A stretch of 64,000 nucleotides of DNA from Zingiber officinale (taxonomy: Eukaryota > Streptophyta > Magnoliopsida > Zingiberales > Zingiberaceae). Positions within the stretch are counted from its first letter, which is position 1; the number at the start of each line of letters is the position of its first letter. The stretch covers positions 102,938,947 to 103,002,946 of the forward strand of contig NC_055992.1 of the NCBI RefSeq assembly GCF_018446385.1. The letters run 5' to 3'. The translations under genes and the position numbers were made by a program. The notes under the pieces were generated by a model. That model worked only from the letters and a program-made list of their open reading frames with translations. It made no database searches and was not told the origin of the DNA. Of this stretch, positions 12,381 through 54,417 are shown piece after piece.

Positions 12381-13551
12381 CTTCTCGTTTCGGATGTAGG
12401 CTACGTTCCCACGGACGATGCCAAAATGATCCTGTCCAAAAATGAGAGGGTGGAAAGTTAGGGATGTGGCTGCTATGCTAACTGGCTGTAGAATGCGCTT
12501 CGCTCTGCAAAACAAGTAATATTAGTGCCGAGCCAGGGAAGGGGTCTCCGATGTTAGCCCTCCGACGCTCAAGTCAGTCACTGGAAGTATAGAAGGAAGC
12601 AGAGCAACAGTAATGCAAGCGCAAACAGTAATAACGCGTACCTCCACCGGTGATTGACCCCCATTTATATAGAACCCTGGTGGGTGATGTGCATGCTCCT
12701 CGATGCGTGGACACGTTCTCCAATATGTCCTATGAAGGGACCTGTCAGGAAAGTATCTCTAACACCATACCTTAACGGGACATGTATATCCCTAACAAGG
12801 CAATAGAAACTTCTATCGTACGATCCGTCTGTCGACTATGTCTCGTGTCAGCGACATTATCTCCCAGAAGGATATCGAGAGATACGACAATTATCCTGCT
12901 ACTTGGCCGAGCGGGATAGCCGCTCGGCAGGGACTCTTTCGCTCCGTCAGCTTCAGAGAGATGATAAGTGTTAGGATCGGTGATCGCGGCTAGAGAGGGG
13001 GGTGTGAATAGCCACCCCAAAATACTCGTTTCTTTCTACAATTAGGGTTAGCGCAGCGGAAATAAAACGAATAGAAACGAAAGGGAAGGAAGACAAACCT
13101 CAAACAAACCGATGTAACGAGGTTCGGAGATAAACTCCTACTCCTCGGCGTGTCCGTAAGGTGGACGAAGCCTATCAATCCGTCGATGGATGAGTCCCCG
13201 GAGAACCGGCTAATAGATGCTCCTTGTGGGTGGAGAAACCTCGCCACAATACTTGTAACAACAAGAAAGGAGTACAAGGAAAGCAAGAAGCAAATACAAA
13301 CAACAATATGAATGCAACACTCGCTTGCCTTCTCTGTCGACCGGAGGCGATGAAGCAGCAACATCACAACCCAACTGCAGCAGCTGATCGACGACTGAAA
13401 GCTCACGCGAAGCTTCGGAAGCGAGCTCAACAAAGGTCAGAACCTCAGAGCACAGAAGCAGAAGCTTCAATCCAAGGAAGAAGAAGAAGAAGAAGCAGAG
13501 GCTCTCTACGCCTTCAGTACTGAAAGTACTGAAGAAATCTAGTATCAGACA

Positions 13552-13760
13552 CTGATCGGTCTACGGACCGATCTCTCCACCCATCTGTGTGTAATCTGAT
13601 CGGTCGGGGACCGATCAGGTCGGCCTCGCACGCGGACCTCTTCAGTCCAGTCGGCTTTTACCCCGACCGGGCAGATACAGAGGAATTTATGTTCGACGAG
13701 CCGTCATCGGACCGATCGAATATTTGAGATCTTTATATCGATCACGGATCGATCCAGCTC
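13552..13760. repeat. Palindrome cluster, GATCGGTC/GACCGATC type
   Basis: Inverted pairs such as GATCGGTC-tacg-GACCGATC and GATCGGTC-ggg-GACCGATC recur with further single arms (accgatcg near 13711, cggatcgatcc near 13745). The cluster lies between the hairpin array and the conserved block near the LTR end. It is the counterpart of palindrome clusters in the other LTRs of the window. Confidence 0.7.
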
Positions 13761-13787
13761 ATGATTTTCGCCCAAACCAAGTCCAAA

Positions 13788-13990
13788 CCAACATCCGGTC
13801 AATCTTGACCTGTTGGTACATTGCGCCTAGCATCCAGTCACTCCCTTGACCTGCTAGGACTCCCCGCTAAGTGTCAGGTCAATCCCTTTGACCCACTTAG
13901 ACTTTTCTCTCCGTACCAAGTATCCGGTCAATCCTATGACCTACTTGGACTTCCCATCACCAGATGTCCGATCACCCTTGATCCATCTGG
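13788..13990. repeat. Array of five two-stem hairpins with covarying outer stems
   Basis: All five units have the form outer arm, 3-base bulge (tcc or tca), GGTCA-type arm, short loop, TGACC-type arm, outer arm. Unit 13788-13816 has outer arms CCAACA and TGTTGG. Unit 13826-13858 has CCTAGCA and TGCTAGG. Unit 13867-13900 has CTAAGTG and CACTTAG. Unit 13916-13948 has CCAAGTA and TACTTGG. Unit 13960-13990 has CCAGATG and CATCTGG. Every outer stem is a perfect 6-7 bp match although its sequence differs from unit to unit. In the last unit the inner stem also changes in compensation (GATCA with TGATC). This is seen directly in the sequence. Confidence 0.9.
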
Positions 13991-13999
13991 ATTTTCCCT

Positions 14000-14380
14000 T
14001 GCCCGGCTTCACTCACCAGGACTTTCACCTAGCTTCACTCACTAGGGTTTTCACCTGGCTTCACTCACCAGGATTTCCAATCTGCCTGGCTTCACTCACA
14101 AGGATTTCCCAACTGCCTGGCTTCACTCACCAGGACTTTTCCAACTGCCTGGCTTCACTTACCAGGACTTTCCACATCCGGTCCAGAGAACGAGCTCCCA
14201 AGCCCTCTCTGACCACAGTCCGGAGAACGAGCTTCCGAGCCCTCTCCGACTTCCCATGTGCCAAGCTTCCATACTTGGACTTCTCCGTGCCAAGTCTCCA
14301 TACTTGGACTTTTCCCGTGCCAAGTCTCCATACTTGGACTTGTCCCGTGCCAAGCTCCCTGCTTGGACTTTTCCGAGTCA
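14000..14380. repeat. Second array of small hairpins (CCTGG/CCAGG and CCAAGT/ACTTGG types)
   Basis: Units of about 26-32 bp contain CCTGG-cttcactca-CCAGG, one with CCTAG-cttcactca-CTAGG (a compensatory pair), then from about 14258 CCAAGT-ctccat-ACTTGG repeats and one CCAAGC-tccct-GCTTGG, again compensatory. One unit has lost pairing (CCTGG with CAAGG). The tail near 14385-14575 repeats GGTCAA and TTGACC pairs. Confidence 0.8.
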
Positions 14381-15060
14381 GGTCAACTCACCTTGGGTCA
14401 ACCAGGTCAACCTTGACCGCGGGTTGCACCCACAATCTCCCAAGCTTGTATCCTTGTCAAACATCAAGGTACAAACATTGTCAAACATAACTCGTCAAAC
14501 ATCAAAACACAACTCGAGTCAAGTCAACTCGAGTCTGGTCAACCAGGTCAACCTTGACCTAAGGTTGCACCAACAATAAGGATCCAGTTGTTTGGCCAAG
14601 CAGGGTAGCCGCTCGATCGGGATCCCTCTGCTTTGTCGACCTCAATTGCTCTTTGTGTAGTAACATGCCCTCCTCGTTCGGATAACCTCTCCGATCTCCT
14701 TAGCATCTTGCTGCTTCATACCGAACGTCTAGCTATCTTACCGTATTATCCGAGCTAGACGGTTGGCCCATCCGGATACTTATTACCCAACCGGCCTTTG
14801 CAACCTCTTGTCGATCGGACTTTCGGCGCCTGCCCTGATCGACCGTTGTAGTCGACCTCCGTTCGACCACTGTAAGTGAGTATTTTGATATCTTAGTATT
14901 GACCACCTTGACTTTGACCTCTATCTCGACGGTTGACTCATGTCGAATGGGCTCCTTCTAGTACCGCATCAATTAGGAAGAAAATCCTAATTTAAATATC
15001 GGAGTGGCTACGAGATTCGTCTCACGGCCCGTCTAACCTTCCCTCTAAATGTATTCCATG

Positions 15061-52735: not shown

Positions 52736-53225
52736 CCTAACTTCCAACCCGAAGTGTAGAGTTCATTTACCCAGTATCCGATCAACCGTGACCTGTTGGA
52801 ACTCCTCATTGCCTAGCATCTGGTCAACCTTGACCTGTTGGAACTTCTTCACCAAGTGTCCGGTCAATCCTTTGACCACTTAGACTTTTCTCCTTGTGCC
52901 AAGTATTTGGTCAAACCTTTGACCTACTTGAACTCCTAATCACCAGGTGTCCGGTTAACCTTGACCCACCTAGATTTCCACTGTCTGACTTCACTCACCA
53001 GGACTTCCTCACTGCCTAACTTCACTCACTAGGGTTTTTCACCTGCCTTCACTCACCAGGATATTTTCACTGTCTAGCTTCACTCGCTAGGGATTTTCAC
53101 ACCAAATGTCCAATCTGTTGGTGCGGTTAGCACTAACGATTTAACCCAGGTTTTAATGAATGACAAAATAGGTTAAGTTAGTTTTGTTGTTGATCTAACA
53201 CTCTGACCGAGTGTGCAGGAAAAGT

Positions 53226-53422
53226 CCAGGACAGGTCGACGGGCTGACCTGATGTCTGGCACGAATCCCAACTAGGTTGACGGGCCGACCGGATAGTTAG
53301 CACGAAGTCCAAATGGGTCGACGGGCTGACCGGGTGTTTGGCACGAAGTCCAGCTAGGTCGACGGGTTGATCGGATAGTTGGCATGAAGTCCAGACGGGT
53401 TGAAGGACTGACCTGATGTCTG
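53226..53422. repeat. Array of five two-stem hairpins, about 41-bp period
   Basis: Units at 53226-53259, 53268-53300, 53309-53341, 53350-53382 and 53391-53422 share GGTCGACGGGCTGACC-like inner stems with a gga, ggg or tga bulge on the 3' side. Outer arms differ: CCAGgACA with TGTCTGG, CCAACTA with TAGTTAG, CCAAA with TTTGG, CCAGCTA with TAGTTGG (one G-T pair), CCAGAC with TGTCTGA. Orientation is opposite to the array at 13788-13990, in line with the opposite LTR orientation. Confidence 0.85.
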
Positions 53423-53683
53423 ACAGGTAAGTAAAGGTAAGTCACTGGAGGAAAGTGACTGTGAGGACGCAATACCGAGAAGGGAACTTAGGCGCCGATC
53501 TGACTTAGAACCATTTTGGAACTCTAAGTCGAGATCTTGACTAGATTTCGGTCTCGGAGAGATAGAATCTAATTAATACTATTTCTGTTTATTATAACTG
53601 TGTTAATAATCTGTTTTGCAGGAGATATAAGTGTCTCGGACTAACGTTTTCTTGCAGGTAGGAACCCATTGGAAAACAGGGTC

Positions 53684-53782
53684 CGAGCGCCCGGGAGGTC
53701 CCCGGGCGCCTGGAGGTTCAGGCGCCCGGGAGGTACCCGAGCGCCTGGAAGTCCGGGCGCTCGGGAGGTACCCGGGCACCCG
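53684..53782. repeat. CCCGGGCGCC-type palindrome cluster
   Basis: GCGCCCGGGAGGTCCCCGGGCGCC-like inverted pairs recur about four times in 100 bp, each with a gaggtac or gaggttc spacer. The cluster lies about 110-210 bases before the TATA box of the same LTR. Confidence 0.85.
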
Positions 53783-54417
53783 GAGGCAAAAATATATCCA
53801 CTTCGCGACATCAACACGTGGAGTTCGCTGGTTGACTCGGCTACGTCACATCCAAGACGCCCTGAAGGTTCTAGGTGCTCCGAACCTCATATATAAGGAG
53901 GGTCAAGGCTGAAGTCAGAACAACAACTCATAATCCGCTCTCCTGTGCTCCTGTGACGCTGCGAAGCTCCGACAACGCGCTTCTCTTTTAGTTTCTTCCT
54001 TTGTCGGTATTGTTTTGTTTTTTCATTGGCATTTCTGTACTTAGTTTGTAATAATTTCTGAATTGCTAGTGAATTGCCCATCGAAAGCACCCTTGTGTGC
54101 GGGCCTTGGAGTAGGAGTCGCCAAAGGCTCCGAACCAAGTAAAAAGGTTCTTGTGTTAGCATTGTTTTGATTTCGTCTTTTTCCGCTGCGTACTCTCGAC
54201 CTTTTTAAATCGCTATTCACCCCCCCCCCCTCTTTAGTGAAACTCACGATCCAACACAATCAACACTAATCCACTTAGATTTTCTTCTTCTGCCAACCTT
54301 CCAGTTGGACTTGCCCTTGCCTCACTTCTAGCTAAGACTTTCCTAATCAAGTATCTAGTCAACCTTACCCACTTGAGTCTTCTTCACTGCAAACTGGTCC
54401 AACCTTAACCAGAGGGG

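Follow-up and report, generated by a model that had tools for sequence, protein, structure and literature searches.

Tandem bulged hairpins with paired arm changes in the LTR of a high-copy Sirevirus-type family of Zingiber officinale

Palindrome-rich LTR control regions are already known in Sireviruses. As far as the available portions of Bousios et al. 2010 (PMC2829016) go, the repeated motifs (RM) of Sirevirus LTRs are palindromic with a CGG-CCG core, share a single sequence within each element (similarity commonly above 85%, Table 3 of that paper), and are read as sites of factor binding; no mention of their covariation was found in those portions. The array described here lies in a 64,000-nt stretch of Zingiber officinale contig NC_055992.1, the whole of which is referred to as the window. 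Like these motifs, which precede a mid-LTR TATA box, it forms a crowd of palindromic repeats in the LTR's upper half (in the window's subfamily and near kin likewise ahead of a TATA box), and a relative on contig C17 also carries CGGTC..GACCG palindromes between its array and its TATA box. It differs in that its units have a GGTCA/TGACC core, a 3-nt bulge on one side only, and outer arms that are specific to each unit. The original prediction, made from the sequence of the window, had held that no LTR feature of such form is named, a claim that finds no support in view of the Sirevirus palindromic motif arrays known upstream of the TATA box (PMC2829016, same portions), and it had left unnoticed both the minus-strand reading of the element and the position of the array in U3.

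Three further systems are close. A palindrome region of maize LTRs (2016, Genome Res 26:226), as cited in the available parts of PMC5311732 and PMC10760457, is a hairpin-forming, fast-evolving part of the LTR regulatory region, as is the array here; the maize region is known as a hotspot of small-RNA mapping, whereas the present array is known from its sequence alone, and no paired-change test on the maize palindromes was found in those parts of the two papers. Tnt1 and similar copia U3 activators (symmetric or tandem) likewise consist of symmetric regulatory boxes (Tnt1 box I, PMC2829016), a likeness of description, and differ in that the available text of that paper mentions no covarying stem series for them. 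For RNA hairpins maintained by template switching (PMC8794818, in the part available), compensatory changes are predicted from copying, as they might be here; unlike in those hairpins, the bulge length, the edge of the stem and the reduced rate of stem change in the present array argue for constraint. Among the papers listed in a survey of the literature, no earlier report of covarying stems in LTRs was found. The present array adds a bulged GGTCA/TGACC unit whose outer stems are unit-specific, together with the evidence that its pairing partners change together.

The hairpin array and its host LTR

All five bulged units of the original prediction, with the outer arms that it listed, are present at 13787-13990 of the window (Table 1; spans are given with 7-bp outer arms). 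Its account of the inner stems stood with respect to the near-constant core and the change on both arms of u5, and had missed a mismatch in u2 (A-C, + strand). Folding of 13780-14000 against dinucleotide shuffles (60 shuffles), a control proposed along with that prediction, gave z -4.6 for the sense and z -8.5 for the antisense strand, both being more stable than the shuffles. A search of Rfam with the array returned no family, the two matches obtained (E up to 1) both lying far under the gathering score. The window also holds a decayed second copy of the five-unit array at 52766-52990 (+ strand letters), in the same orientation, with several pairs broken and with unit 5 as CCAGGTG/CACCTAG.

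Table 1. Features of the LTR and its hairpin series in the window (arms in + strand letters for u1-u5)
Feature	Position	Strand	Description
Unit u1	13787..13817	(-)	outer ACCAACA/TGTTGGT, bulge TCC, inner GGTCA/TGACC, loop 4
Unit u2	13826..13858	(-)	outer CCTAGCA/TGCTAGG, bulge TCC, inner AGTCA/TGACC (one mismatch), loop 6
Unit u3	13867..13900	(-)	outer CTAAGTG/CACTTAG, bulge TCA, inner GGTCA/TGACC, loop 7
Unit u4	13916..13948	(-)	outer CCAAGTA/TACTTGG, bulge TCC, inner GGTCA/TGACC, loop 6
Unit u5	13960..13990	(-)	outer CCAGATG/CATCTGG, bulge TCC, inner GATCA/TGATC (both arms changed), loop 4
Solo LTR, Sirevirus-type retrotransposon	12969..14575	(-)	1607 bp; TG...CA ends, target duplication
Target-site duplication, low side	12964..12968	(.)	ATAAG, by eye
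Target-site duplication, high side	14576..14580	(.)	ATAAG, by eye
Second hairpin array	14002..14170	(-)	six copies, mostly CCTGG or CCTAG / CTTCACTCA-type loop / CCAGG or CTAGG
Third array	14258..14374	(-)	four ~29-nt copies, CCAAGY/RCTTGG hairpins, CTCCAT-type loop
GATCGGTC/GACCGATC palindromes	13554..13717	(-)	resemble the Sirevirus CGG-CCG type; promoter side of the array

That the units lie within an LTR, as predicted, was borne out by its TG...CA ends and ATAAG flanks, and the occurrence of ATAAG on both sides identifies it as a solo LTR. Orientation was drawn from the primer binding site (PBS), gag and polypurine tract (PPT) of the relatives L002 and L004; one complete relative has its PBS (TGGTATCAGAG) on the minus strand, together with a gag frame that contains a CCHC-like knuckle, so that in sense the window LTR starts at 14575 and ends at 12969. 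The PPT has the sequence AGGGGGAG, after which come AT and the LTR start (TG). Among 28 rows compared (including the window twice, its decayed second copy and one unrelated hit), AGGGGGAGATTG stands immediately 5' of the LTR start in 9, and no such motif occurs within the stretch examined in the others, some of which would be the other end of an element or stop early. Three extra PPT octamers were present within 700 nt at 4/4 junctions, a count that is circular for the PPT/AT/TG motif by which the junctions themselves were located, and the C17 stretch has 6 such octamers in sense and 0 in antisense. A polyC signal (a run of at least 5 C with TCTAGC close after) was found upstream of the LTR end at 12/12 junctions located by the PBS motif, for which reason the conservation of the PBS itself at these junctions is a circular count.

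TATAAA was found 333-468 nt sense-downstream of u1 in 12 of the 28 rows, all in the window's subfamily and its near kin. Among these rows, the other subfamilies showed none at this distance, and the window copy likewise lacks it; the TATA box of the C17 relative is TATAAAAGG. In the window's subfamily and near kin, the array thus lies in U3, upstream of the promoter. Another TATAAA, beside the array (~13733, about +80), was considered as the promoter and rejected, as it is private to the window copy. Clustered PPTs, the AT/TG junction, the polyC signal and the PBS junction are features of Sireviruses in the available portions of PMC2829016, and with several of these hallmarks (clustered PPTs, AT/TG junction, polyC signal) the element looks to be of Sirevirus type (Ty1/copia). 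In the related genus Amomum, SIRE is reported as the prevalent copia lineage in most of the genomes analysed (PMC11066291, part available). The gag piece matched the copia-type gag PF14223 weakly and under the cut-off (E 0.0042), and the single internal region that was read, from one relative, had no recognisable pol frame; on these grounds the array's subfamily looks non-autonomous. As a separate observation, the LTR contains its first ~60 bases (sense) two times, at 14374-14436 and 14515-14577, 141 nt apart, with a GGGAGATTG run preceding the inner copy. L019, a relative, has three starts of this kind, and the LTR may have grown through alternative start points.

Other hairpins surround the array. 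The arms of the CTTCACTCA series covary in the fetched stretches (204 CCTGG/CCAGG, 193 CCTAG/CTAGG and 14 mixed), and a count of hairpins with the CTCCAT loop of the third array was dropped as noise only. The C17 stretch contains 13 CGGTC..GACCG palindromes; in the interval from array to TATA box, one of its two LTRs has 3 of these and the other 5. The CGG-CCG core of the RM box is absent from u1-u5, whose cores are GGTCA/TGACC, AGTCA/TGACC and GATCA/TGATC. Long GATCGGTC-type hairpins also occur in an internal region, sense-upstream of the terminal PPT (L004, 3020-3120). Elsewhere in the window, GC-rich hairpins of CCAGGCGCCCGGG/CCCGGGCGCCTGG type stand in tandem with a ~35-nt period at 53680-53790, possibly as part of another LTR with its own palindromes, and an 82-base tandem repeat at 53222-53422 contains GGTCGACGGGCTGACCGG pieces. 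The flank of L002 (~2580-2800; C17:17416836, minus) holds, in the opposite orientation, an array of another subtype, in which CTAAGTG/CACTTAG occurs along with repeated CCAGATG units; this suggests a neighbouring or nested element.

Copy number and covariation of the stems

A unit pattern (CCAAGTN ... NACTTGGAC plus core) was searched across the genome (3.09 Gb, 211 contigs), producing 34,711 matches (17,358 + 17,353) and 0 for the reversed control, with 16,837 of the matches having the G-C form at the innermost outer pair. Among the arrays listed, between 4 and at least 10 units are adjacent. For unit counts, units were located by bulge and core only, except for one anchor unit per locus on contig C1. 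All seven outer pairs were Watson-Crick in 320 of 517 units (69 merged stretches; C1 anchor units included), and 353 distinct units had a mean of 4.55 of 7 outer positions paired, compared with 2.67 (sd 0.07) when arms were re-dealt among units; the arms are thus more complementary than shuffled ones, the opposite of what the original prediction had named as its refutation. Outer arms with 6/6 complementarity numbered 1654, against 14 with reversed arms (64 offset combinations, both strands), and 1464 of the 1654 were accounted for by the 3/0 offset, its one-base outward register, and the mirror images of both. The one-sided 3-nt bulge was present in 364 hairpins with 6/6 arms, and 9 bulge-less hairpins were all of GATC/GGTC type and not array units. 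A genome-wide ratio of single mismatches at inner pair 1 (A-C 6,709, G-T 244) was left unused, because the first 100 A-C copies listed were near-uniform and look like a few amplified lineages.

Covariation between LTR lineages was analysed in two samples. Sample 1 contained 67 LTRs (60 distinct) aligned over u1-u4, remaining from 71 arrays after removal of 3 unrelated hits and 1 window duplicate, and includes the array in the flank of L002. Sample 2 contained 35 arrays from 40 new loci on contigs C2-C8, 5 of the 40 loci having given no u1-anchored array, and its counts omit u4 inner pair 1, since the loci were chosen by that pair. Arrays were found by a u1 pattern that includes the arms with some alternative letters, which shapes the variation seen in u1 and not that in u2-u4; the C1 loci were picked by one well-paired unit, which biases u3 and u4 toward an apparent lack of change; u4 is possibly mis-aligned in arrays with extra units, and u5 is outside the tree counts.

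Over the 67 LTRs, 95.0% of cells in u1-u4 were Watson-Crick. Cells with a paired change numbered 35, whereas 1000 re-dealings averaged 6.4 and never exceeded 13, and slid partners gave 2-5; base pairs with a paired change numbered 6, a value reached by 75 of 1000 shuffles, and further pair types 7, reached by 22 of 1000. When all 2304 column pairs (48 true) were ranked by mutual information, true partners made up 4 of the 5 highest and 7 of the 20 highest. On a tree built from non-stem columns, sample 1 produced 14 double changes, 10 of them from Watson-Crick to Watson-Crick, compared with 1-2 doubles of any kind for slid partners, and sample 2 produced 13 Watson-Crick doubles compared with 0-2. 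Pooling gave 16 Watson-Crick to Watson-Crick doubles against 0-2, of which 5 are in u1 (with letters within the search pattern) and 11 outside it, and 21 doubles of any kind against 2-5. When outer arms were paired across units, the 12 combinations yielded 11 doubles in total (0-3 each), and the 4 true combinations also yielded 11 (2-3 each); the excess over this control is therefore only about threefold, and since copies share ancestry, independent events are few. In support of the original prediction, arms change in pairs at orthologous positions between lineages, at a level exceeding both slid-partner and re-dealt controls.

Several paired states match no other unit type seen, namely ACCAATA/TATTGGT, CCCAACA/TGTTGGG and inner AGTCA/TGACT in u1, CTTAGCA/TGCTAAG in u2, and CTAAGTG/CACTTAG in u3, and these units are therefore not simple copies of one perfect hairpin, which had been raised at the outset as the alternative. 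Paired states at u3 outer pair 1 and at u4 outer pairs 1 and 7 do match other unit types, and could be whole-unit swaps.

Stem constraint and competing explanations

Shared changes were taken as transmitted, and were compared with changes found in single copies. Shared changes per column amounted to 0.43 (outer stem), 0.45 (inner stem), 0.83 (bulge), 1.09 (spacer) and 1.52 (loop), and single-copy changes, in the same order, to 0.95, 0.72, 1.08, 0.97 and 1.14. Stem and non-stem columns of sample 1 had 42 and 113 shared changes, compared with 82 and 119 in single copies (p=0.007), and those of sample 2 had 40 and 128, compared with 89 and 126. A tree from the compared non-stem columns is biased in principle, and a split-half control was therefore performed (102 pooled arrays, half-column trees), in which shared changes were fewer in the stems than in the held-out half for 6/6 splits (0.71-0.78 vs 1.92-2.71 per column), and the stems had a lower shared-to-single ratio (p 0.00001 to 0.068, below 0.05 in 5/6). 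With a tree from all columns (102 arrays), the constraint on stems was seen at p=0.001. Base composition differs between stem and non-stem columns.

The timing of changes was read from LTRs separated by 5-8 kb, on the assumption that each such pair belongs to a single element. In 18 comparisons (18 of 19 listed LTR pairs, the C17 pair having been merged into one stretch, and one LTR entering two comparisons), 22 one-sided and 0 paired stem differences were found over 1300 stem cells. Paired changes make up 7/33 of shared and 0/22 of post-insertion changes, a modest difference (p=0.034), and 6 of the pooled Watson-Crick doubles sit in single copies. Paired changes appear to have arisen mostly during the multiplication of lineages and not after insertion, and on this reading stems are not visibly perfected by host replication once the element has inserted.

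Foldback template switching, during reverse transcription or DNA replication, would copy one arm from the other and make stems perfect without any function. The mechanism has been proposed for RNA genes (PMC8794818, part available), the region is recombinogenic, as tandem arrays vary in unit number, and the six single-copy Watson-Crick doubles are compatible with copying and with selection. Pure copying would, by our own reasoning, leave the stems at about the neutral rate, but they change more slowly than spacers; no array unit with a closed bulge was seen, pairing ends sharply after pair 7 (pair 8 being Watson-Crick in 31/411 units), and one-sided states persist in lineages (24 + 11 + 5 shared one-sided changes). 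The lack of paired changes among the 22 post-insertion differences counts against copying at replication, and has no weight against copying by reverse transcriptase. Template switching is accordingly unlikely as the main cause, and of the two causes between which the original prediction had left the choice, it is the selected fold that is favoured.

The inner stems could also be sites in duplex DNA for stress factors, in the form of inverted W-box-like half-sites (TTGACY, which we take to be the WRKY W-box), with the arrays acting as a U3 enhancer. The position of the array in U3, upstream of the TATA box, would suit such sites, TTGAC is found on the right arm in 301/411 units and its mirror on the left arm in 228/411, and stress-factor sites have been suggested for Sirevirus motifs (PMC2829016, in its available portions). 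They leave unexplained, however, why outer arms are specific to each unit, match within it and change in pairs across ~20 nt. An origin of the inner stem from W-boxes alone is contradicted by u5, where GATCA/TGATC loses the core and keeps its pairing, and by the 70/411 units with neither core nor mirror, and factor binding to duplex DNA is judged an improbable explanation.

Selection of an RNA fold on the sense strand would tolerate sense G-U states. The sense:antisense ratio of G-U states among shared one-sided changes was 17:4 in sample 1 (single-copy 27:23) and 7:8 in sample 2 (single-copy 31:16), with pooled values of 24:11 for shared and 49:36 for single-copy changes (p=0.31), and the non-stem columns of sample 1 have a G-to-A tendency of the same sign as the wobble bias. 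A call of the RNA strand from this bias was dropped, as the excess in sample 1 failed to replicate in sample 2, and RNA is therefore not favoured over DNA; against shuffles, the antisense strand folds at least as well as the sense strand. A cruciform or other non-B DNA form might then be what is selected at U3, for example by keeping nucleosomes or methylation off the promoter. The same covariation evidence would apply to it, and tolerated mismatches lacking a reproducible strand bias fit DNA equally, but extrusion from duplex DNA generally calls for longer stems than the bulged 5 + 7 bp found here, and this form is considered quite unlikely. Plain tandem duplication with neutral decay, in which covariation would come from shared ancestry or whole-unit swaps, can point to the u3 and u4 states shared with other unit types and to the double changes that cross-unit pairing of arms also gives, but is highly improbable, as the original prediction had argued, given five paired states (two u1 outer, u1 inner, u2 and u3) that equal no other unit type and slid-partner controls that, with the same ancestry, give only 0-2 Watson-Crick doubles.

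The proposed fold and its meaning

The reading that we prefer, with a probability of roughly 0.6, is that the array is part of a palindrome-rich U3 cis-region of a very-high-copy Sirevirus family, in which selection keeps the stems pairable. The tandem stem-loops look descended from one another. In lineages that are still transposing, selection would preserve the pairing of each stem but let its letters drift in pairs. Loops and spacers would drift more freely, and stems would decay after insertion. A single strand may fold at some point in the life cycle, most probably the genomic RNA in the U3 portion of its 3' end, or the minus-strand cDNA copied from that portion. That such a single-strand fold is recognised through its constant bulge and inner stem, with the outer stem as a generic clamp, is our preferred guess only, and tentatively held.

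It is possible, though doubtful, that protein-binding stem-loops form a string of modules at the U3 end of Sirevirus genomic RNA, each with a constant bulge and inner stem and a drifting outer clamp. If so, the string could serve packaging or the handling of the 3' end by Gag or a host protein, and its stem-loops would exist in tens of thousands of unit copies, readable straight from covariation. The available part of PMC10760457 asks why elements retain structures that possibly invite silencing. A need for the fold itself is suggested by paired changes that occur between transposing lineages but were absent when the two LTRs of one insertion were compared, and a family with so many copies allows this need to be tested from sequence alone.
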